From the NCBI GenBank assembly GCA_030616165.1, contig JAUWXV010000081.1, positions 1-13,688 of the forward strand: a DNA stretch of 13,688 nt. Direction: 5' to 3'. Source of the DNA: a bacterium. Its GTDB lineage: Bacteria; SM23-31; JAUVVT01. Position numbers and translations under genes: made by a program. The notes under the pieces were generated by a model. That model saw nothing but the letters and a program-made list of their open reading frames with translations. It was not told where the DNA came from and did no database searches. This document shows positions 418 through 13,193 of the stretch, piece by piece. How positions within the stretch are numbered: the first letter of the stretch is position 1; every line of letters starts with the position of its first letter.

Positions 418-1644
418 ATGATAAAAAGAATAATGCCTTTTTGCCTAATGGCGCTCTTTTTACTTGGCAGTGTTTGTGCAAAAGTTTCGGATGATATTCT
501 TCTAACAAAAAAATTCATTGCCCCTCCGGGGTCAAAAATTGGACTGTTTAGTCCGGGTATCATGGTAGGCAAAACGCTTTACGTGGCCGGGAAGGGGGAT
601 CACATTCCCGGTGGAGGCCATCCTGAGACCTTCCCGGAACAGGCAAGGCAGTGCTTGGAAAATGTTCGCTCCACTTTGAAACTGGCGAATATGGACATGG
701 AGAATGTGGTTAAAGCGTGGGTAGTTCTTGATGACCTTGAAAACTATAATGAGTTGAATAAAGTGTTCTGGGAATATTTTCCAAAAAATCATCCTGCCCG
801 CACAACACTTCAGGTTGGAAAAATTCCCGGCGATTCCCATATTGAAATCACCGCTATTGCTTATAGCAAGCTCTCTGAAATCGAGATAATCCGACCTCCT
901 GGTTCAGCTGCCTCCAATCTCCCGTACAGCCCGGGAGTTCTTGCGGGCAATACCCTCTACATTTCTGGTAAGGGAGACCAACTTCCTGACGGCAGTCATC
1001 CTGCGACATTTAAGGAGCAGGTTCGTCAGGCGCTGGAAAACGTTGATTCGGTGTTAGAGGCGGCGGGTCTGGATTTCCGACATGTTGTTTGGTGTAATCC
1101 CTATCTGGACAAATATGAAAATTATTCGGAGATGAATTCGGTATACAGGGAATATTTTGAATTTGGAAAGACGCCTGCACGGGGTACTATTTTTGTCGAT
1201 AAAATTCCCGGTGGTTCCCATATTGAAATTACCTGCATTGCAGCCACGGATTTGTCCACACGAAAAGTAATTCGTCCGTCGAATATGGAGCCCAGCCCAA
1301 CTGCCAGTCCGGCTATTATGGCAGGTGATATCTTGTACCTTTCTGCTAAGTCCGGCTTTGTTCCGGGAAACGGTATAGTTGCAAAGGAGCTGGAAGGTCA
1401 GCTTCATCAGACCTTTCAGAATTTATTAGATGGGCTTCAGGAATCGGGACTGGGCTTTGAGAATGTTGTGTCTGCCAATGTCTATTTGCGTGATTTGGAA
1501 GATTTTGAACGAATGAACAAAATATTCCGGCAGTATTTTACTTCTGGACCCCCAGTTCGTACTACGTTTCAACAGAATTCCGGATATGAAAAGAATAATG
1601 CTCTGGAACAAATATCCCTTATCGCCGCCCGGACTACAAATTAA
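418..1644 (+). CDS. Exported protein with three fused RidA (YjgF/UK114) domains
   Basis: RidA-family proteins hydrolyse reactive enamine/imine intermediates made by PLP enzymes and are normally cytosolic homotrimers of about 130 residues. Here one 408-residue chain has a Sec signal peptide (residues 1 to about 21, cleavage likely after Val-Cys-Ala) and three tandem domains at about 30-150, 160-277 and 283-405. Each domain keeps the family's substrate-binding Arg (R128, R255, R381), the late Glu (E143, E270, E397) and the mid-domain Asn (N114, N240, N367). The Cys two residues after the Arg in E. coli-type RidA is Thr here. Domains 1 and 2 are very alike (shared TLY..GKGD, HP.TF.EQ, PAR.T and SHIEIT); domain 3 is more diverged. 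The start is supported by AAGGAG at 408-413. The chain could fold as a covalent pseudo-trimer. Family assignment is sure; substrate and exact activity are inferred. Confidence 0.93.
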   Translation: MIKRIMPFCLMALFLLGSVCAKVSDDILLTKKFIAPPGSKIGLFSPGIMVGKTLYVAGKGDHIPGGGHPETFPEQARQCLENVRSTLKLANMDMENVVKAWVVLDDLENYNELNKVFWEYFPKNHPARTTLQVGKIPGDSHIEITAIAYSKLSEIEIIRPPGSAASNLPYSPGVLAGNTLYISGKGDQLPDGSHPATFKEQVRQALENVDSVLEAAGLDFRHVVWCNPYLDKYENYSEMNSVYREYFEFGKTPARGTIFVDKIPGGSHIEITCIAATDLSTRKVIRPSNMEPSPTASPAIMAGDILYLSAKSGFVPGNGIVAKELEGQLHQTFQNLLDGLQESGLGFENVVSANVYLRDLEDFERMNKIFRQYFTSGPPVRTTFQQNSGYEKNNALEQISLIAARTTN

Positions 1645-2247
1645 AAGAAACGATTGTGCACTTTGCCGACACTCATTTTCTTTTCGCTGCAAACTTTTTC
1701 TGATACCGAATTTACAGGCTCAAGACAACCATTAAAAATATATCCCAGTGCCGTCCCATTTTCTGGTAATGTGAAGGATTTAAATTCATTATGTTGTGTT
1801 TGAAGTAAACTAGTGAGGTGATTTCTTAACCCTTTAACTAATAATTCTTCTATATTAGTAAAAAATAGAATATTTAATGTCAAATGTCAAAATCCAAATG
1901 TCAAATCAAGCTCTCCTCCAATGGCGGATTAGGAAAAAAATCCAAATATCAAAATAACTATAAATACACAAGTTTTGACATTTAGTCATTTGGATTTTAT
2001 TTGGCATTTGAGCTTTGAAATTTAAGCTTTTATTAGTAATATACCATAAAACTGCTTTTTTCAGATGCGAATATTTAAAGTTAATATATTAACAAATCGT
2101 TACACTAGCAAATATATACAACCATCCTTTTTGCGATAGACCTCTTGTATGTGAGATTGCGAAAGATAAATTAGAAATATCATCGATTCTTCAATGAGTA
2201 ATATATCATTTTTTCTTGTTACCTTTTATTAAAATGGAGTTAAGACC
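1645..2247. other. Intergenic spacer of about 600 bp
   Basis: No convincing gene. A minus-strand open stretch (1641-1883) has a protein-like composition, but its only early start is a TTG inside a repeat, and it has no ribosome binding site. An imperfect inverted repeat spans 1877-2016 (separate entry). A perfect 14-bp palindrome, GTTAATATATTAAC, lies at 2080-2093, and a 10-bp partial inverted copy of the right-hand 19-bp repeat (TTGCGATAGA) lies at 2131-2140. The last bases lead into the PLP-enzyme gene. Confidence 0.6.
1877..2016. repeat. Imperfect AT-rich inverted repeat, MITE-like
   Basis: The left part (about 1877-1912) consists of repeated CAAATGTC/AAATCCAAATG words. The right part (about 1972-2016) holds the reverse complement of the same words (TTTGACAT, CATTTGGATTTT, GGCATTTGAGCTTTGA). 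A 12-bp core pairs AAAATCCAAATG (1889-1900) with CATTTGGATTTT (1988-1999). The unit loop contains a GC-richer word, CTCCAATGGCGGATTAGG. It has no coding capacity and looks like a non-autonomous dispersed element. Exact ends and target duplications could not be defined. Confidence 0.6.
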
Positions 2248-3486
2248 ATGAGATTGAAATTTATAGACTCGGTAAAAGAAGGATTCCTGGGGAGATTTTC
2301 GCGCCGGGATTTTTTTAAAGGGTCTGTCCTTGCTGCTCTTGCCACAGTGTTCGGGTGGAAATGCAGCACCCCTTTTTACTTCCCCAGAATTTCCATACCA
2401 ACCTATTCATCCATAGGTGTAAGACCAGTTATAAACTGCCAGGGGACATATACAATTTTGAGTGGTTCCCTGATGTTTTCCGAGGTTACGCAAGCAATGG
2501 AGGAGGCAAGTAAACATTATGTCCACATGGACGAGCTGATGGAAGCAGTCGGGAGGAGACTGGCAGAACTAACAGGTGCGGAATGGGGCTTGGTGACTTC
2601 TGGCGCGGCTGCAGCCTTGTGCTGTGTTACTGCGGCATGTGTTGCCGGTTCAGATCCGGAAAAGATGGCACTGCTTCCGGATTGTTCAAGCCTCAAAAAT
2701 GAAGTTCTGGTGCCCTTTAATCATCGCCACGTGTATGACCATGCCATAAGGATGGTGGGGGTCAAATTAATTGAGGTAGATTCAAAGGAAGAAATGGAAG
2801 CAGCCGTGAATGACCGCACTGCGATGATTGATGTCTTAGGTGATGTGTGCGATAGGGGTCCGATATTCCTTGATGATATGGTTGCCATTGGAAAGAAATA
2901 CAACGTTCCCGTTGTGGTCGATGCGGCAGCTGAGCGCCTTGATGTGCCGAATGTGTACCTGCAAGCAGGAGCGGATGTGGTGGTATACAGCGGCGGAAAA
3001 TGCATGAGGGGACCGCAATGTTCCGGTCTGGTATTGGGACGAAAGGATATTCTTCAGGCGGCATTTTTGAACAGTGCTCCGCATCATGCCTTATGCCGTC
3101 CGATGAAAGTGGGAAAAGAGGAAATTATGGGCTTACTGGCAACAGTTGAAATGTGGATTAACGGCCGTGACCATGAAGCCGAATGGAGGGAATGGGAGAG
3201 AAGATTGCAATACATCAGTGACTGCATAACCATAATCCCATCAGTGAAGACGGAAGTCGTTCTGCCGGGCATATCCAATGTGGCGCCGACACTTTCCATT
3301 ACCTGGGACCAAAATAACGTGAAAATTACACCCCGAGAAATTCAGAAAATATTGTTGAATGGAGAACCCCGCATACAGGTTCCGCTCAGTAGAAGGGGAC
3401 TTTCTATTATGCCCTATATGATGGAACACAATGAAGAAAAGATAGTAGGCAGGCGACTGCATGAGGTTCTTTCAAATACGGTTTGA
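2248..3486 (+). CDS. Tat-exported PLP-dependent enzyme, SelA/DgaE-like (D-glucosaminate-6-P ammonia-lyase type fold)
   Basis: This fold-type I PLP enzyme belongs to the 'SelA-related' group, which includes DgaE-like ammonia-lyases (alpha,beta-elimination of amino-sugar acids) and is not true selenocysteine synthase. The Schiff-base lysine is K251 in YSGGKCMRGPQCSG. Asp225 in VVVDAAAE should contact the pyridine nitrogen, and TSGAAAAL at 117-124 is the phosphate-binding turn. The CRPMKVGKEEIMGLLATVE stretch (283-301) is characteristic of the group. The N-terminus has a twin-arginine signal (SRRDFFK, 18-24, then a hydrophobic run to about 36), so the folded, cofactor-loaded protein should go through Tat. 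There is no good lipobox at C39. The start is supported by GGAG at 2236-2239. A small secreted protein follows after 66 bp, probably cotranscribed. Fold and cofactor are confident; substrate unknown. Confidence 0.9.
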   Translation: MRLKFIDSVKEGFLGRFSRRDFFKGSVLAALATVFGWKCSTPFYFPRISIPTYSSIGVRPVINCQGTYTILSGSLMFSEVTQAMEEASKHYVHMDELMEAVGRRLAELTGAEWGLVTSGAAAALCCVTAACVAGSDPEKMALLPDCSSLKNEVLVPFNHRHVYDHAIRMVGVKLIEVDSKEEMEAAVNDRTAMIDVLGDVCDRGPIFLDDMVAIGKKYNVPVVVDAAAERLDVPNVYLQAGADVVVYSGGKCMRGPQCSGLVLGRKDILQAAFLNSAPHHALCRPMKVGKEEIMGLLATVEMWINGRDHEAEWREWERRLQYISDCITIIPSVKTEVVLPGISNVAPTLSITWDQNNVKITPREIQKILLNGEPRIQVPLSRRGLSIMPYMMEHNEEKIVGRRLHEVLSNTV

Positions 3487-3552
3487 GTGTGGTGGATATG
3501 TGGTAGTTGAGATATTAATTTTTTATTAGACGAACTATTTTGTGAGGATTTT

Positions 3553-3942
3553 ATGCGTTCATTTTTTCTTTTCAGCATCGTCTTCTTTTTTACGTTTATG
3601 ATAAATTATGGATTTGTGGAAGCCCAGGAAAGGAGACCAGATGCGGCAGGCGAATGGGTCATCACCATTAAATTCATTTATGGAGTCGGGCATCATACGG
3701 CAATAATACATCAGAAGGCAGACTCGCTTTCCGGAACATATAAAGGTGAATTTAATGAAGGTACCCTTCGCGGTACTATTCAGGGTGAACACATCGATTT
3801 CACCGGATATCTCAAACACGAGGCAAGTAGTTTACGTTTTCATTATACCGGAGTAATAAAGAATGACCAGATGGAGGGGGCGGTGGATATGGGAGAATAC
3901 TGGTCCGGCACATGGGTCGCCAGACGGGTGAAGCACGATTGA
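3553..3942 (+). CDS. Small secreted beta-rich protein, function unknown
   Basis: A 129-residue protein with a Sec signal peptide (hydrophobic run 4-18, cleavage likely after Val-Glu-Ala at 24). The mature part of about 105 residues is a chain of short beta strands split by Gly-rich turns: G-E-W at 33-35, GTYKGEF, GTLRGTIQGE, FTGYL, FHYTGVI, MEGAVDMGEYWSGTW and a closing WVARR. This G.W...G.Y.G...G...G....W.A.R layout resembles small lipocalin-like or beta-barrel exported proteins often seen beside amidohydrolases and other exported enzymes; I know no assigned function. GAGG at 3544-3547 supports the start. With only 66 bp to the PLP enzyme upstream, the two probably form one transcript, so it may bind or stabilise that enzyme or its ligand (inference). 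Confidence 0.85.
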   Translation: MRSFFLFSIVFFFTFMINYGFVEAQERRPDAAGEWVITIKFIYGVGHHTAIIHQKADSLSGTYKGEFNEGTLRGTIQGEHIDFTGYLKHEASSLRFHYTGVIKNDQMEGAVDMGEYWSGTWVARRVKHD

Positions 3943-4600
3943 TGAGTGTCAGGGAATAATAAAAAATATAAGTGTGGACATCCTCATCATCTGGTCGTGA
4001 TTCCTTGTTTATCATTCTGGACGGTTCAAAAAGTATTTGTACGGCAAACCTTGGTAAGATTTAATCTCTTCTGTCTGCCTGATAAACAGACCGGACTATC
4101 AGAAATACCAATTTAAAATGCTTAAGTCTGTATTATTTTTAAGTTGTGTTTACAATTAGCCAGAATTTTTTATTATCCGGTGGGCGGGAGTGATATTCGT
4201 ATTCTTACTGCAATTAATATCGCGCAGTGGGATATTCTTGGCAAAGCGCTCGGGGTTCCTATTTACCGTTTTTTATGTACTGCAACTCACCGGAGTTTCT
4301 GATAGACGCTGTTTATGGGGAGATACTACATCGGCGTATAAATAATCTATTCCACCTTCATACCTATTCGATAAGAGTCTGTCTTAACCGTTTTGCGACT
4401 ATCCGTTCCTCTCCTGGCTCCATCATATAGGGATTTACCGATAAGTCGTTAAGTGAGTGATTATAATAGTATCGTTGAATTGAATAGAAGGATCTATTAT
4501 CATTTTAAAATGGCAACTTGTTAGTTTTGTTTGTTATTGAATAATATTTTTGCACATAAATCATTTTATTGTTTACGTATAAAATGGAGGGTCGAGACAA
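3943..4600. other. Intergenic spacer of about 660 bp holding a gene remnant
   Basis: The only recognisable content is the enolase-superfamily remnant at 4126-4302 (separate entry). The flanks (3943-4125 and 4303-4585) have stops in all useful frames and no recognisable domain. A weak imperfect hairpin near the start (GATGAG with CTCATC) may help end the upstream transcript, but there is no clean T tract. GGAGG at 4586-4590 is the ribosome binding site of the amidohydrolase gene. Confidence 0.6.
4126..4302 (+). pseudogene. Remnant of an enolase-superfamily (mandelate racemase/muconate lactonizing type) gene
   Basis: Reading in the frame of 4186, the open stretch between a TAA (4123-4125) and a TGA (4300-4302) includes GGSDIRILTAINIAQWDILG, followed by KALGVPIYRFL (4183-4275). 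This is the hallmark junction between the capping domain and the barrel of COG4948 proteins (AI.IALWDI.GKA.G.PVY.LLGG). The expected LLGG is lost: the frame runs into CTATHRSF and a stop, while the +1 frame offers a weak continuation (LQLTGVSDRR), suggesting a frameshift. No start, no N-terminal capping domain and no catalytic barrel are left. Living relatives include N-acylamino-acid racemases, dipeptide epimerases and sugar-acid dehydratases; the fragment cannot tell which. Confidence 0.75.
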
Positions 4601-5881
4601 ATGAAAAAGAATATGTTCGCAATTTTTCTAATCTTAATACTTTTTTCAACATGGAAGTTATCATTTGCCCAGGAATATGACCTTCTTCTCAAAGGCGGAC
4701 ACGTTTTTGATCCGAAAAATACCATTAATGAAGAGATGGATGTTGCTATTTCCAGCAAGAAGATTGCTCGTGTTGATAAGGATATTCCCGCCAATCTGGC
4801 AAAAGATGTGATTGATGTTTCCGGTTACTATGTGACCCCGGGACTTATTGATATCCACGTCCATGTCTTTTACACTTCTGAGGAAGGATTCAAAGGTTCT
4901 GTTCTTCCAGAGACCCGTACTTTTTCATCCGGTGTCACAACAATAGTCGATGCAGGGACGCCAGGATGGCAGAATTTTGTTAATTTTAAGGAGACGGTTA
5001 TTGACCGTTCAAAAATCAGAATATTGGCGTTTCTCAATATTGCGGGGCCAGGTATGGGCGAAGTAGAACAAGATATTCATGAGTTAAATCCTGAAATGGC
5101 TGCCGCAACCGTTAAAAGATATTCTGATATTATTGTCGGGATAAAGACTGCGCATTACTGGACCAGAAAGCCCTGGGATGATGAACATCCGCCGTGGGCA
5201 TCAGTGGACAGTGCAATAGCGGCGGGGAGGCTTTGCAATAAGCCGGTCATGATTGATTTCTGGCCGCGGCTTCCTGAACGACCATACAGCACATTGATTC
5301 TTGAAAAGATGCGTCCAGGGGATATTCATACTCATGTTTTTGCACAGCAGTTTCCAGTTATCAAAAAAGATGGGAAAGTAAACGAAATTTTATTTCAAGC
5401 ACAGCGGCGCGGCGTCATATTTGACCTGGGTCATGGAGCAGGCAGTTTCTGGTTCCGAAACGCTGCCCCCGCAATAAAGCAGGGTTTTTTGCCCAATTCC
5501 ATCGGCACAGACTTGCATAAGGGGAATATTAATGGTCCAGTTGTAGATATGATTACTACTATGTCAAAATTTCTTATTATGGGTGTTCCGCTCGAAGAAG
5601 TTATCAGGCTTTCAACGGTAAATCCGGCAAAGGAAATAAACCGTCCCGAACTGGGTACATTGAGCGTGGGTTCCGAGGCGGATATTGCAGTTATTGAAAT
5701 GTTGAAAGGTCGTTTTAGTTATGCAGATTGTGGAAAGGCAAAAATGACAGGTGACAAAAAACTACGGTGTGTCATGACCCTGCGTGCCGGGGAGATTGTG
5801 TATGATCCCAGTGGATTGAGCATGCTCGAATGGGAAAATGCTCCGCCAGAGTACTGGGTTATTCCAGGGTTACAAAAATAA
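4601..5881 (+). CDS. Exported metal-dependent amidohydrolase, cog3964 (Atu3266/EF_0837) type
   Basis: An amidohydrolase-superfamily enzyme of 426 residues, close in layout to the dihydroorotase-like cog3964 group, whose characterised members deacetylate compounds such as acetyl-(R)-mandelate rather than acting as dihydroorotases. It has a Sec signal peptide (1-23, Ser-Phe-Ala then Gln). Visible metal-site residues are H86 and H88 in GLIDIHVHVF, the probable carboxylated K182 in VGIKTAHYW, H245 in DIHTHVF, H278 in FDLGHGAGSFWF and the catalytic D304 in IGTDLH. The composite beta domain is formed by both ends (YDLLLKGGHVFDPKN; GSEADIAVIE to the AGEIVYDPSG region). GGAGG at 4586-4590 supports the start. 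EF_0837-type genes are known to sit beside SelA-like PLP-enzyme genes, and here one lies 1.1 kb upstream on the same strand. Export is unusual for this family. Substrate unknown; an N-acyl amine or ester is the best guess. Confidence 0.93.
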   Translation: MKKNMFAIFLILILFSTWKLSFAQEYDLLLKGGHVFDPKNTINEEMDVAISSKKIARVDKDIPANLAKDVIDVSGYYVTPGLIDIHVHVFYTSEEGFKGSVLPETRTFSSGVTTIVDAGTPGWQNFVNFKETVIDRSKIRILAFLNIAGPGMGEVEQDIHELNPEMAAATVKRYSDIIVGIKTAHYWTRKPWDDEHPPWASVDSAIAAGRLCNKPVMIDFWPRLPERPYSTLILEKMRPGDIHTHVFAQQFPVIKKDGKVNEILFQAQRRGVIFDLGHGAGSFWFRNAAPAIKQGFLPNSIGTDLHKGNINGPVVDMITTMSKFLIMGVPLEEVIRLSTVNPAKEINRPELGTLSVGSEADIAVIEMLKGRFSYADCGKAKMTGDKKLRCVMTLRAGEIVYDPSGLSMLEWENAPPEYWVIPGLQK

Positions 5882-6289
5882 AAAAGTGCAGCAATTAATA
5901 GCGAAAAACGGAAATTGTTTGTTTCCTCTTAAGTGCTAATGTTAATTATATAATACTGCAATGCTGAATATCAATGGTAAGCTGAATTGCTCCCGACATA
6001 GTATTGCGTATTATAAATAATACGATAGGATTGTGCATACATGAAAAAAATTATAAAATCCGGCTGTTAGAGAATGGATTCCCACTGAATATTCGGGGGG
6101 AATGACACATTAATCCCTGATAAATTATAAAAATGGGTTGGATTTCAAAAAAATTTCAGATTAACTTGAGAAATTTCTTTAATTTTATTATAATAATAGT
6201 TCGTAAAATTTCTTAAAATTTTGGGGATGAAAAAACCTTTAGTTCTTAAATAACACATAAACTGAAATCATTTAAAAGGGGAGAATCCT
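5882..6289. other. Intergenic spacer with short palindromes
   Basis: No gene found. CGTATTAT and ATAATACG (6007-6014 and 6017-6024) form an 8-bp stem with a 2-base centre, a possible operator or small hairpin. A degenerate REP-like unit lies at 6075-6107. The stretch 6130-6250 is very AT-rich and probably carries the promoter of the membrane-protein gene, but I see no clear -35/-10 pair. GGGGAG at 6278-6283 is the next ribosome binding site. Confidence 0.6.
6075..6107. repeat. Single degenerate copy of the 244-335 repeat unit
   Basis: Starts TGGATTCCC and ends GGGGGGAATGACA, as in the right arm at 304-334, but the central palindrome is altered (ACTGAATATTC instead of CCGAGTACTC) and one G is added. 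It is a lone arm rather than a pair and lies between two genes, consistent with a dispersed intergenic repeat family. Confidence 0.7.
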
Positions 6290-7568: not shown

Positions 7569-8834
7569 CTAATTGTTGCCAAAATCAAGCGAAACCATAT
7601 ATACCTGTCTTGTATTCTCATGAAACGAGTCAAAACATATCTTGTCACTTGTGTGATTCCATCTCGGATGCAGGTCGCATCGAGGAGGTCCGTCAATTTC
7701 TGGAGGTGCATAAAACCTGCCAATTGGAAGCACTGCATCATTTTCCATATCCATCAGCATCAATGTTCTCATTCTGAGTTCATCCGGATAAGTATCGGTA
7801 ACCATCCATCGTCCATCTGGAGAAAATACACCGTGACCATCCTTTGTTAGAATTCCCTCTCCGAGTATTCTATAATTTTCCTTTCCATCCGCAAACAGAA
7901 GATGAGAAAAAAGTTTACCCTGATATCTTGTAGTTACCATAAGTTTTTCAGGAGAAAGCCAGTCATAATGAGATGCTCCCCAACTGAAAGGCAATACGCA
8001 CCTGAGGTCTGAACCGTCGAGGTTCACTGTAAATCCTGCTGTCAAACGCCTTCCGCCGGGTTTGTGAGTTCGTGCCATAAAAAATATTCGAGTATCATCG
8101 GGATTATAAACGGTATGATTCATCCATAAGAGGGGCCCTTCAATCTCTGGAGGCGGAGGTGAAAGAGCATGAATATCTGCTAAAGAGACAATTAATTTGG
8201 ATTCCCCGGTTTCAAGGTCAATGACAAAAAGACCGTCATCAGATGGATAAGTCTCATCCAGTTTTGGCTCATCCCCATTACCCGCATATCCATAACCGGG
8301 GCGCGTTATGTGGAGTCGTGCGAAGTTTAAACTTACCGCTGTCTTACCATTGTTAGAAACTGCGCTGACAGGACGACCAATAACACGTTCCTCTTTTGTA
8401 TGGACATTAAGAATAACAGAAACAAATTTACCATTTCGGCGGTCATTGTAAATAATATTTGAATCGGGGGAAGTGCCCAGCCAGTGCTGCATTGCCCCTT
8501 GCTGAAAATTCCATGCATAAGTTTTTGCAAGAGGTATAAAATTATCATTAGTAAGGTCTACCATTCCTATTGCAGCAGTTTCATCAGCAGTTGGATTATG
8601 GTCAGCAATATCTGTTTCAAGGCAGAGCAAGTAACGCTCTGAAGCACTCCATGAACACGTATGGTAATAGGCGCTTGCAAAATGATGCTTGGGTCCTGAT
8701 GTCACGGAGCGAATCTCTAAAATTTTCGGGAAACCTTTTTGGTTTAATTGCCTGGAACCACAAACTGAAATTAAAAGACCTATTAAACAAAAAATAAAGG
8801 TTAACCGAATAAATTTTATTGATGATAATAGCAT
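7569..8834 (-). CDS. Exported PD40-type beta-propeller protein (oligogalacturonate-lyase-like fold)
   Basis: A 421-residue protein with an N-terminal hydrophobic signal (7-24). Cys25 follows Ile-Ser-Val, an atypical lipobox, so it is either a lipoprotein or a periplasmic protein. Propeller repeats of the TolB/PD40 kind can be seen: WSASERYLLCLETD (62-75), NPDDTRIFFMAR (244-255), FSPDGRWMVTDTY (337-349) and WNHTSDKICFDS (392-403). The closing HPRWNHTSD..CFDS..E..RQVYMVDL-like end is common in proteins annotated as oligogalacturonate lyase. Other conserved-looking words are FQQGAMQHW (110-118), IIYNDRRNGKFVSV (127-140) and ARLHITRPGYGYA (172-184), rich in His, Tyr and Arg, as expected for a catalytic or ligand face. 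Propeller polysaccharide lyases (PL22, PL24/25) are possible relatives, but activity cannot be claimed. The start is supported by AGAGAGGTG (complement of 8841-8849). Confidence 0.9.
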   Translation of the reverse strand: MLLSSIKFIRLTFIFCLIGLLISVCGSRQLNQKGFPKILEIRSVTSGPKHHFASAYYHTCSWSASERYLLCLETDIADHNPTADETAAIGMVDLTNDNFIPLAKTYAWNFQQGAMQHWLGTSPDSNIIYNDRRNGKFVSVILNVHTKEERVIGRPVSAVSNNGKTAVSLNFARLHITRPGYGYAGNGDEPKLDETYPSDDGLFVIDLETGESKLIVSLADIHALSPPPPEIEGPLLWMNHTVYNPDDTRIFFMARTHKPGGRRLTAGFTVNLDGSDLRCVLPFSWGASHYDWLSPEKLMVTTRYQGKLFSHLLFADGKENYRILGEGILTKDGHGVFSPDGRWMVTDTYPDELRMRTLMLMDMENDAVLPIGRFYAPPEIDGPPRCDLHPRWNHTSDKICFDSFHENTRQVYMVSLDFGNN

Positions 8835-9612: not shown

Positions 9613-12012
9613 ATGAAAAAATATATACTTATCACAGCCTTAATGTTAGTTTTTATACTATATTTTTCTCTTTTTGCCCAAGAACCTTACAAGCTTCCTC
9701 CTAAGGAAATAGTAGATATTGTAACTGCTCCACCAATTCCCAGAACTTCAATAAGCCCCACGGGTGAGCTTATGGTTCTTGCAGAATATGAAGCCATGCC
9801 CTCAATTGCCTATATGGCTCAGCCACTTCTCAGGATTGCAGGAATCAGGATAACGCCCAAGAATAACAGCCGTCAACAAACAACCTTCTATACCAGTCTG
9901 ACCATAAAGAATTTGAAAGATGGTTCGACCATTCGCACAGCCTTACCAGAAGGGACAAAGTGTGGTTTTCCTCGATGGTCCTTCGATGGGAAATGGCTGG
10001 CTTTCACTCGCTATTTAGAAACCGGCGTTGAACTATGGGTTGTTGAAGCAAAATCAGGAAAAGCGAAATCTCTTACTCCTCATGAAATCAATGCTGCCTT
10101 AAGCAGTGGTTTTAGATGGATGCCTGATAACCGTCACCTGCTTGTGAATATGGTTTTAGAAAATCGTGGGAATCCTCCAAAACCTCCTGCTGTTCCAATA
10201 GGTCCTACAGTTCAGGAAACATCAGGTAAGTCTTCAAAGGTCTGGACTTATCAAGACCTTCTGACAAGTCCATACGATGAAGATTTGTTCGATTATTACG
10301 CCACATCTCAAATTGTTGAAATAGATGTTATTTCCGGAAATATCCGCAAGATAGGTTCACCCGGCATATATAGCAATACATCTCATTCACCCAATGGAAA
10401 TTTCATCCTTGTTAATAAGATAAAAAGACCATACTCCTACAGTGTTCCTTACTCCAGATTTACCCATACGGTAGAAATATGGGACAGGAATGGTAAAATG
10501 GTTCACCTTTTAGCCGATATGCCCCTTGCGGATGAAGTTCCATTGAGAGGAGTTTCCACAGGCCCGAGGCCTATTGGATGGCGCTCCATGGAACCTGCCA
10601 CTCTTGTCTGGGCTGAAGCGTTAGACGAAGGAGACCCTGAAAAGGAGGTTCCTCACAGGGATAAAATCATGACACTCTCTGCTCCATTTAAAGATGAACC
10701 CAAAGAAATTACGAGAATTCAACATCGCTATTCAGGAATTTCCTGGATGCAAACAAAGGGGATGGCTTTTATTACAGAATCTGACTGGAAAAGAAGATGG
10801 CGAACTACCTATTTGATTAATGTTGACAATCCGAATATATCTCCTAAAAAAGTATTTGACCTCAGCAGTCAAGACCGTTATAACAATCCTGGAAGCCCTA
10901 TTTCTAAAGTTACTGAGGCTGGTGAGCGAATATTAGTCCTTGATAATGATTGGATTTATCTTTCAGGGAGAGGTGCCTCGCCTGAAGGGGACAGACCCTT
11001 TCTGGACAGAATGAATATCGAAACAATGGAAAAACAACGCCTGTTCCATTCAGGGAAAACAAGTTATGAAACCTTTGTTGATTTTGTCGGGGATTCTAAA
11101 TCTCAGATAATAATTAGTAATGAATCAAAATCAGAGCCTCCAAACTACTATCTGGTAAATCTAAGGACAAACGAACGGAGGTCTTTAACCGACTTTAAAG
11201 ACCCAGCACCCCAGCTCACGGGCATAAAAAAGCAACTTATAAAATACAGGAGAAATGACGGGGTTGAGCTTTCCGGAACTCTCTATCTTCCCCCAGACTA
11301 TGAAGAAGGGGAAAGACTGCCCCTTGTTATCTGGGCATATCCCCGGGAGTACAGTGACCCTAAAATTGCCGGACAGGTGAGTGGTTCACCTTACAGGTTC
11401 ACCTTTTTTAGGGGTACATCCCAGCTTTTCTTTGTAACACAAGGATATGCTCTTCTTGATGGAGCGCAAATGCCCGTTGTCGGAGACCCAAAAACTATGA
11501 ACGAAACTTTTATCGACCAAATTGTTTCCAGTGCAAAAGCGGCTATAGACAAACTTAATTCCACGGGCATTATCGACCCCAAACGTGTTGGTGTAGGGGG
11601 ACACAGTTACGGTGCTTTTATGACAGCAAACCTGCTCGCTCACTGTGACCTTTTTGCTGCCGGAGTTGCCAGAAGCGGTGCCTACAACAGGACATTAACT
11701 CCTTTTGGTTTTCAGAGCGAACGCAGGACTCTATGGGAGGCTCCTGACTTATATTTTAAAATTTCACCTTTCATGCATGCTGATAAAATAAATGAACCAA
11801 TACTCCTGATTCACGGGGAAGCCGATAACAACTCCGGTACATTCCCTATTCAGTCAAAAAGGCTTTACCATGCCGTAAAGGGACATGGTGCAACTGCCCG
11901 ATTGGTCATGCTTCCATACGAAAGCCATGGTTATAGTGCAAGGGAATCTGTTCTTCATGTGCTGGCAGAAATGTTCGAATGGTTGGATAAATACGTTAAA
12001 AATAAAAATTAG
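9613..12012 (+). CDS. Exported prolyl-oligopeptidase-family serine peptidase, S9D (glutamyl endopeptidase-like)
   Basis: A 799-residue secreted peptidase with a Sec signal peptide (1-22, Leu-Phe-Ala then Gln). The middle (about 90-530) is a beta-propeller with PD40-like repeats (RWSFDGKWLAFTRY at 121-134, FRWMPDNRHLLV at 167-178, HSPNGNFILVNK at 258-269). The C-terminal alpha/beta-hydrolase domain (about 540-795) has the nucleophile S665 in GGHSYGAFMTANLLAH, the acid D738 in LIHGEADNN and H772 in ESHGYSARES. The run GVARSGAYNRTLTPFGFQ and the last motif are hallmarks of the S9D glutamyl endopeptidases, including the plant chloroplast enzyme, so cleavage after Glu is likely. AAGGGAGGTG (9599-9608) is a strong ribosome binding site just before the ATG. 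The gene stands alone, divergent from the propeller gene and convergent with the aldo/keto-like gene. It probably degrades peptides in the periplasm. Confidence 0.95.
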   Translation: MKKYILITALMLVFILYFSLFAQEPYKLPPKEIVDIVTAPPIPRTSISPTGELMVLAEYEAMPSIAYMAQPLLRIAGIRITPKNNSRQQTTFYTSLTIKNLKDGSTIRTALPEGTKCGFPRWSFDGKWLAFTRYLETGVELWVVEAKSGKAKSLTPHEINAALSSGFRWMPDNRHLLVNMVLENRGNPPKPPAVPIGPTVQETSGKSSKVWTYQDLLTSPYDEDLFDYYATSQIVEIDVISGNIRKIGSPGIYSNTSHSPNGNFILVNKIKRPYSYSVPYSRFTHTVEIWDRNGKMVHLLADMPLADEVPLRGVSTGPRPIGWRSMEPATLVWAEALDEGDPEKEVPHRDKIMTLSAPFKDEPKEITRIQHRYSGISWMQTKGMAFITESDWKRRWRTTYLINVDNPNISPKKVFDLSSQDRYNNPGSPISKVTEAGERILVLDNDWIYLSGRGASPEGDRPFLDRMNIETMEKQRLFHSGKTSYETFVDFVGDSKSQIIISNESKSEPPNYYLVNLRTNERRSLTDFKDPAPQLTGIKKQLIKYRRNDGVELSGTLYLPPDYEEGERLPLVIWAYPREYSDPKIAGQVSGSPYRFTFFRGTSQLFFVTQGYALLDGAQMPVVGDPKTMNETFIDQIVSSAKAAIDKLNSTGIIDPKRVGVGGHSYGAFMTANLLAHCDLFAAGVARSGAYNRTLTPFGFQSERRTLWEAPDLYFKISPFMHADKINEPILLIHGEADNNSGTFPIQSKRLYHAVKGHGATARLVMLPYESHGYSARESVLHVLAEMFEWLDKYVKNKN

Positions 12013-12197: not shown

Positions 12198-13193
12198 TTA
12201 TCCTCTCCAGAGACGTTCTCTTTGGGAATTATCTGATAATGCTCTATTAGCGATAAGTATATCCTCTTTAATCTGAAAATCATACATTCCAACATTAATA
12301 AAATCTGCCCCCATGTCGAAAGAATATTTAAAAGCTATCCTTGGATGTATCGCTCCCGCAGCTAAAACCTTGTAAGCAATCCACGGCTTTTTCACTTTTT
12401 TCATGAATTCGATAGTCTTTTCTGGATTCATAGACCACATATTATCATGAGGAGGTAAATCAAATGGAGACTTACTTTCTTGTGGAGTAGCAGACCAATA
12501 ATTCCCGCTATGTAAAGTTTTCATGTAAAAATCGACATCTATTCCTGCTTTTTCAACTGCAATAGGCACTTCAACTGAATGACCCCCTACACCTGCAATC
12601 AATCCGTTTTCTTTAATAAATGAGACAACCTTTCCGACCAGGTCAACTTGTCCATTTTTTATAAAACGGTCTCCACAATTACCCTGTATAAAAGCTCCAA
12701 CAGCTCCATTATCAATTGCTCTTTTTACGATAGTAAATAAGTCATGTTCATATGAGTCGCATTGTGCAATCCATTGTATCTTTCCGCCTTCTTTCCAATA
12801 TCTATTGAGATTTCTAATGGAATTTTCATCACGACTTGCTGATCCTGTGTTCATTATACAAGTATTTATTCCGTTTTCTTCACTTATCCGCAGAGTTTCA
12901 ACAACTTTATCATCTGTAAAATAGTGCTTTATTAATGCAGATACATACATCAAATCTCTACTGTGAGCATAGCCGTTGATTAGATTACCGCCACAGATCA
13001 ATCTACTAATCTTAACATTACCAATCTTCCCTATTGGTAAGCCTTTAATATCACCTTCTGGCACACCTGCACTTGGTCTTCTCTGGTTCCGTGCTAATAA
13101 AGCTTGCTCTTCAAAACTTAAACCTCCAGTAACTCCCGCTGATACAATAAGAAAATTTTTCAAAAACTTACGGCGATTCAAATATTCTGACAT
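12198..13193 (-). CDS. Tat-exported aldo/keto-reductase-fold protein lacking the usual catalytic residues
   Basis: A 331-residue protein with a twin-arginine signal (NRRKFLK, residues 6-12, hydrophobic run 13-25). The mature part starts like an aldo/keto reductase (GKIGNVKISRLICGGNLING, 55-74) and continues as a TIM barrel: HSRDLMYVSALIKHYFTDDK (77-96), ETLRISEENGINTCIMNTG (99-117), KIQWIAQCD (138-146), AVGAFIQGNCGDR (164-176), GLIAGVGGHSVEVP (197-210), KPWIAYKVLAAGAIHP (269-284) and FINVGMYDF (298-306). The AKR tetrad (Asp, Tyr, Lys, His) is not intact: the usual D-T-A is N-T-C, and Lys and His are not at their expected strands, so ordinary NADPH reductase activity is doubtful. Tat-tagged relatives are frequent in Planctomycetes and Verrucomicrobia. 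The start is backed by AAGAGAGGT (complement of 13199-13207). Function unknown; flanking 19-bp repeats are noted separately. Confidence 0.92.
   Translation of the reverse strand: MSEYLNRRKFLKNFLIVSAGVTGGLSFEEQALLARNQRRPSAGVPEGDIKGLPIGKIGNVKISRLICGGNLINGYAHSRDLMYVSALIKHYFTDDKVVETLRISEENGINTCIMNTGSASRDENSIRNLNRYWKEGGKIQWIAQCDSYEHDLFTIVKRAIDNGAVGAFIQGNCGDRFIKNGQVDLVGKVVSFIKENGLIAGVGGHSVEVPIAVEKAGIDVDFYMKTLHSGNYWSATPQESKSPFDLPPHDNMWSMNPEKTIEFMKKVKKPWIAYKVLAAGAIHPRIAFKYSFDMGADFINVGMYDFQIKEDILIANRALSDNSQRERLWRG

Follow-up and report, generated by a model that had tools for sequence, protein, structure and literature searches.

A complete 13,688-base contig (G000:C175), hereafter the window, of a 3.74-Mb metagenome-assembled genome (MAG; 90% complete) carries a block of four genes, all on the forward strand, which encode a triple-RidA protein, a pyridoxal phosphate (PLP) enzyme resembling SelA and DgaE, a small protein and a cog3964-type amidohydrolase. 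Reading the enzyme chemistry from families and residues, we see an even chance that the block encodes an extracytoplasmic deacylase, ammonia-lyase and imine-hydrolase module. Because export signals are found on all of these proteins and distant bacteria keep the exported enzymes adjacent, nitrogen-bearing sugars or amino acids are probably broken down in part outside the inner membrane. The three enzyme types ordinarily act within the cell; RidA and SelA/DgaE-like PLP enzymes have been described as cytosolic, and the known task of RidA is the protection of cytosolic PLP enzymes. What we observed are the gene families, the export-type N-termini, a pattern of catalytic residues, a domain fusion and recurrent gene neighbourhoods.

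Gene block and export signals

In the list of open reading frames of the window, the triple-RidA gene (418-1644, 408 residues) comes first, followed by the genes of the PLP enzyme (2248-3486, 412 residues), the small protein (3553-3942, 129 residues) and the amidohydrolase (4601-5881, 426 residues). The intergenic gaps are 603, 66 and 658 bp in this order, and the four genes are not one tight operon. By direct reading, the N-termini of the triple-RidA (MIKRIMPFCLMALFLLGSVCA), the small protein (MRSFFLFSIVFFFTFMINYGFVEA) and the amidohydrolase (MKKNMFAIFLILILFSTWKLSFA) are Sec-like, and that of the PLP enzyme (FSRRDFFKGSVLAALATVFGW) is of the twin-arginine translocation (Tat) type, with SRRDFFK at residue 18 (motif region SRRDFFKGSVLAALATVFGW). 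All export signals were judged by eye and with a simple script, and are in this sense readings of sequence. The genome of the window encodes TatC (217 bits), and a Tat-type N-terminus was assigned to about 82 of 94 PLP-enzyme sequences, by the script and in six cases by eye. The original prediction, made from the DNA of the window alone, had placed three exported enzyme families on one strand, and the open reading frames, families and N-termini bear this out; it had also counted on a common compartment, with which the signals agree as far as such readings allow.

Catalytic residues of the PLP enzyme

The closest solved structure to the PLP enzyme is DgaE (7lc0/7lce, 211 bits). Because its score against TIGR01437, the selA_rel/DgaE family, was 181 bits (3e-53) and thus under the cut-off of 385, we regard it as a relative and not a certified member of that family; the score against NF047797, the DgaE equivalog, was likewise under its cut-off (171 against 600 bits). 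A true SelA was rejected, as TIGR00474 gave 39 bits against a cut-off of 268 and DgaE was far nearer.

We compared the catalytic residues in an alignment of 94 PLP-enzyme sequences, which is gappy in the loop of the histidine pair. DgaE, a cytosolic enzyme with a phosphorylated substrate, belongs to the same PLP superfamily (PMC9529869). The Schiff-base lysine in the SG(G/A)K motif (K251 in SGGK of the window enzyme) is kept in all 94 sequences, and the carboxylate arginine of DgaE in 80 of them, including the window enzyme. Unlike DgaE, the Tat-type window enzyme lacks the phosphate-binding arginines and the proton-donor histidine: Arg-301, Arg-332 and Arg-346 correspond to T348, P379 and Y390, and the columns of His-162/His-163 hold V200/C201. 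The three phosphate arginines occur together in none of the 94 sequences, and the His-His pair occurs in 5 of 94 relatives and in 0 of 24 from RidA-linked loci. The only relatives bearing the pair (L171:8728-9993, L172:9877-11103, L173:9435-10865, L178:8270-9499 and L045:9282-10547) form one clade, and for this reason the contrast between histidine pair and RidA linkage may reflect a single evolutionary event. Three of these five sit in PLP-PLP-amidohydrolase-amidohydrolase runs without RidA nearby.

The H163A variant of DgaE retained near-normal turnover and released the enamine, and enamine clearance is, according to its authors, a task of enzymes such as RidA (PMC9529869). Since the window enzyme has neither the phosphate arginines nor the proton-donor histidine, we infer an unphosphorylated substrate, an enamine product and a RidA partner. 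Direct elimination of ammonia by the PLP enzyme, as originally predicted, does not fit this picture; by analogy with DgaE, beta-elimination of water would produce the enamine, and ammonia would be lost at hydrolysis of the imine (PMC9529869). The enzyme might also perform other chemistry, such as aldol cleavage, racemisation or beta-replacement, with RidA in some other role, and the TIGR01437 score far under the cut-off and the wide diversification of the family would accommodate this. We consider it very unlikely, however, given the invariant PLP lysine, the mostly kept carboxylate arginine, one RidA arginine invariant in 19 of 19 triple-RidA proteins and the specific adjacency of PLP enzyme and RidA genes (see below).

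Triple-RidA and amidohydrolase

TIGR00004 matches the triple-RidA in three stretches (1.4e-70; 235 bits, above the cut-off of 106), and its structure model consists of three RidA folds (predicted template modelling score 0.83; predicted local distance difference test (pLDDT) 80). The arginine of imine hydrolysis is present in every domain (R128, R255 and R381), that of domain 2 being invariant across 19 triple-RidA relatives; the glutamate is kept in domains 1 and 2 (E143, E270), and Gln (Q398) takes its place in domain 3. This architecture, 3x-RidA, has already been named for the EF_0115 type (PMC4433059), with which the window protein shares three tandem RidA domains and presumably a covalent trimer. 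It differs in its exported-type N-terminus, the words signal peptide and periplasm being absent from the text of that paper. No multi-RidA chain was found among the PDB matches of the triple-RidA. With 22 exported triple-RidA genes as the anchor, no single conserved partner gene emerged; a PLP gene adjoins 3 of the 22, leaving 19 without one alongside. In L159:8620-11100, L160:8727-11207 and L161:8754-11400, two exported triple-RidA genes stand in tandem with no PLP-enzyme gene nearby. Elsewhere in the genome of the window (L059:7188-8327, G000:C158), a 380-residue protein carries two RidA-like domains, both weak, and shows no visible signal.

Enzymes of the cog3964 type act on N-acetyl-D-amino acids and acetyl-mandelate. 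The amidohydrolase of the window scored 402 bits against NF006689/PRK09237, above the cut-off of 371, and alignment to 2ogj demonstrated that all metal-site motifs are kept (HxH with H86 and H88, K182, H245, H278 and D304). The binuclear metal motifs are shared with the solved examples 2ogj, 2ics and 8je0, from which the window protein differs by its exported-type N-terminus. Bryobacterales copies also occur in arrays of five: L181:3304-9776 and L188:5671-12200 each hold five cog3964-type genes head to tail, nearly all with export-type N-termini.

Conserved neighbourhoods in distant bacteria

A single scan of named genomes detected PLP-enzyme relatives in Bryobacterales, Verrucomicrobia, Latescibacterota and one Gemmatimonadota MAG, and no further close copy was found among 6 genomes of the window's own phylum. 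Since only 1 of 288 Verrucomicrobiota genomes gave a strong match, this is not a general trait of that group. An exported RidA adjoins a Tat-type PLP enzyme in Verrucomicrobia (L019, where, as in the window, the RidA is triple and lies upstream) and in eight Bryobacterales loci (L018, L026, L163, L174, L176, L182, L186 and L189). Among closely related Latescibacterota loci, an exported RidA is followed by the PLP enzyme in 11 of 12, the twelfth ending at a contig edge. In eight genomes, leaving out the window's own, five PLP-RidA pairs lay within 1 kb, compared with 0.39 expected (P 5e-5). No RidA was present in the stretches fetched around the more distant Tat copies L148, L150 and L151, nor in those around five cytosolic-type paralogues of the same group (L152-L156).

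Of 31 Bryobacterales genomes, 8 have an exported amidohydrolase at most 500 bp from a PLP enzyme, where 0.73 would be expected (P 1e-6); these include three genomes (L171, L172 and L173) in which two PLP-enzyme genes and two amidohydrolase genes form a run. PLP-amidohydrolase linkage was at chance in the eight genomes of the PLP-RidA count, which were the first to be analysed. Within the taxonomic order of a Bryobacterales MAG, single genomes hold as many as 23 PLP enzymes and 14 amidohydrolases, and the two copy numbers correlate across the 31 Bryobacterales genomes (Spearman 0.88, Pearson 0.96; phylogeny not controlled). Exported RidA, PLP enzyme and amidohydrolase stand together in the window and in two Bryobacterales loci, L174 (within about 3 kb) and L176 (within about 9 kb). 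On the tree, neighbouring RidA and amidohydrolase genes are scattered over several separate lineages, and the linkage was therefore not inherited as a single block. Lack of conserved linkage in related genomes had been set beforehand as a reason to abandon the original prediction; the linkage was looked for and was found across phyla.

The genomes concerned, Bryobacterales among others, export many enzymes, and the families may simply be abundant. Adjacency and copy-number correlation might then be a habit of such genomes without any joint pathway, the exported RidA being a general clean-up protein. Many unrelated Tat-type genes surround the loci, as this explanation would have it, and it is equally compatible with the 19 of 22 triple-RidA genes that have no PLP gene alongside, with the chance-level amidohydrolase linkage in the first eight genomes and with a correlation calculated without control for phylogeny. 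It accounts poorly, however, for adjacency above random expectation in several tree lineages and four phyla, and for the absence of RidA adjacency beside cytosolic-type paralogues, and we judge it improbable.

Among further neighbours, a Sec-type RraA-like aldolase stands beside a Tat-type, barrel-fused PLP enzyme in L027:871-3361, L031:9280-11802 and L185:5716-9081, and Tat-type enolase-superfamily proteins are encoded near the PLP enzyme in L036, L171 and L172.

The small barrel protein and two gene remnants

A small secreted protein had been noticed in the block, and it is indeed present and Sec-like, but it is not a separate gene type. The same domain forms a C-terminal fusion with the PLP enzyme in 12 relatives from one search and in 21 of the 94 sequences of the tree set, by which an unrelated secreted gene was rejected; the small protein is a detached version of this C-terminal domain. 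In a FastTree phylogeny of the 94 PLP enzymes, those with a fused barrel are the sister group (support 1.00) to the clade of the window enzyme. The AlphaFold model of the small protein, from an alignment of three sequences, is an 8-stranded meander barrel (pLDDT 81); both this model and that of the triple-RidA were built on shallow alignments. It superimposes on avidins with Z 12-13 and a root-mean-square deviation of about 2 over about 92 residues, and on a domain of quinohemoprotein amine dehydrogenase with Z 15.3. The likeness to avidins in the model is one of fold, and a shared fold shows no function.

Two gene remnants lie between the small protein and the amidohydrolase. On the forward strand, 26 residues of an enolase-superfamily gene (4204-4281) scored 16.3 bits, the best of about 1,400 scored shuffles reaching 3.9. 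On the reverse strand, 27 residues from the C-terminus of a second SelA/DgaE-like gene (4373-4453) scored 15.5 bits against a shuffle maximum of 4.4, and this remnant forms an inverted DNA repeat (I4) with the live gene. The dead enolase-superfamily gene had been recognised correctly in the original prediction, even if little of it is left; the PLP-enzyme remnant had been overlooked, and a single dead gene is rejected. The two remnants are convergent, and since intact convergent pairs exist in L034 and L057, we infer that a similar older pair has decayed in the window.

Proposed pathway and its alternatives

In the module that we propose, the amidohydrolase would strip the N-acyl group, probably acetyl, off a carboxylic acid that bears an amino group; the likeliest candidate is a 2-amino-2-deoxy sugar acid, e.g. 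N-acetylglucosaminate. The PLP enzyme would fold and load PLP in the cytoplasm, be exported by Tat and then eliminate the beta-hydroxyl of the freed amine. Having no DgaE proton donor, it would let the enamine go, and RidA in the same compartment would speed its conversion to a 2-keto-3-deoxy acid and ammonia. The barrel domain may help the PLP enzyme, perhaps by aiding its assembly or by catching the substrate. Exported enolase-superfamily dehydratases and RraA-like aldolases, where they occur, would act on analogues without the amino group and split the keto acid. The products would be imported afterwards, and phosphorylation would not be needed.

In the cytoplasm of Pseudoalteromonas prydzensis, the ong pathway (OngB, OngC, OngD) degrades N-acetylglucosaminate by means of a deacetylase, a PLP ammonia-lyase and a RidA protein that is essential (PMC9537276). 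Likewise, an amidohydrolase-type deacetylase, a PLP ammonia-lyase and RidA would act here in series, on an N-acetylated amino-sugar acid in ong and on a presumably similar substrate in the window. The ong enzymes differ in being predicted cytoplasmic and in having a fold-type III PLP enzyme (OngC), a D-aminoacylase-like OngB, a single RidA domain in OngD and no barrel; the window PLP enzyme, SelA/DgaE-like and Tat-type, is not a fold-type III homologue of OngC. The three-step logic is therefore already known. What the searchable literature does not describe is the compartment, the family of the PLP enzyme, the barrel domain and the multiplication. As the original prediction had supposed, no description of a wholly extracytoplasmic version was found in the literature searched. 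Searches on RidA in Acidobacteria and on Tat-exported PLP enzymes of the PvdN type returned nothing relevant, subscription papers lying mostly outside them.

The same exported module might act on N-acyl-D-amino acids, such as cell walls or racemised organic matter in soil could supply, with the amidohydrolase as a D-aminoacylase, the PLP enzyme as a D-serine/threonine-type dehydratase and RidA clearing the enamine. RidA classically clears enamines of serine/threonine dehydratases (PMC4433059), OngC of the ong pathway, the cytosolic analogue, accepts D-serine and D-threonine for deamination as well (PMC9537276), and the phosphate site of DgaE is missing from the window enzyme. On the other hand, the nearest solved homologue, DgaE, is a sugar-acid enzyme, and the enolase-superfamily and RraA-like neighbours suggest sugar acids. 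Taking these together, we regard D-amino acids as a rather unlikely substrate class, though one to be taken seriously.

Several points weigh against a sugar-acid module outside the inner membrane. The export calls come from our own reading of the N-termini, and the window holds no transporter or kinase for the product. The substrate of the PLP enzyme does not appear to be fixed by its nearest certified models, which it matches under their cut-offs, and in the gappily aligned loop the role of the missing histidine may have passed to an acidic residue. The closest relatives of the PLP enzyme, within its own clade (L014, L021 and L155), look cytosolic, and in L128 a Tat-type RidA stands beside a PLP enzyme without visible signal. 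The complete trio is confined to three loci, the linkage being mostly pairwise.

Other genes and repeats of the window

The window encodes further exported enzymes, namely a possible beta-propeller protein whose family is not clear (7569-8834, reverse strand) and a Sec-type S9-family peptidase (9613-12012, forward strand). A Tat-type protein of 331 residues (SEYLNRRKFLKNFLIVSAGVTGG; 12198-13193, reverse strand) matched no Pfam family over its cut-off. Upstream of the block, a near-perfect (97%) 33-nt inverted repeat at 244-335, built on the palindrome CCCCGAGTACTCGGGG, is possibly a small mobile or repetitive extragenic palindromic (REP)-like element, and by eye a related stretch lies near 6075-6110.

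Implications

A conserved exported pairing of RidA and PLP enzyme would place enamine chemistry, and its control, outside the inner membrane, with no ATP at hand, and it offers a reason for the possible loss of the DgaE proton donor. More tentatively, and at somewhat less than even chances, an entire PLP-dependent deamination pathway might operate there, comprising a Tat-exported holo-PLP enzyme with its barrel, a RidA that clears a purposely released enamine, an upstream deacylase, and exported aldolase and dehydratases; in Bryobacterales its paralogues would number in the tens and form a repertoire for organic compounds that contain nitrogen. In single Bryobacterales genomes the PLP-enzyme family has as many as 23 members; the exported pairing would give it a testable role, and an unnamed barrel domain would gain a partner.

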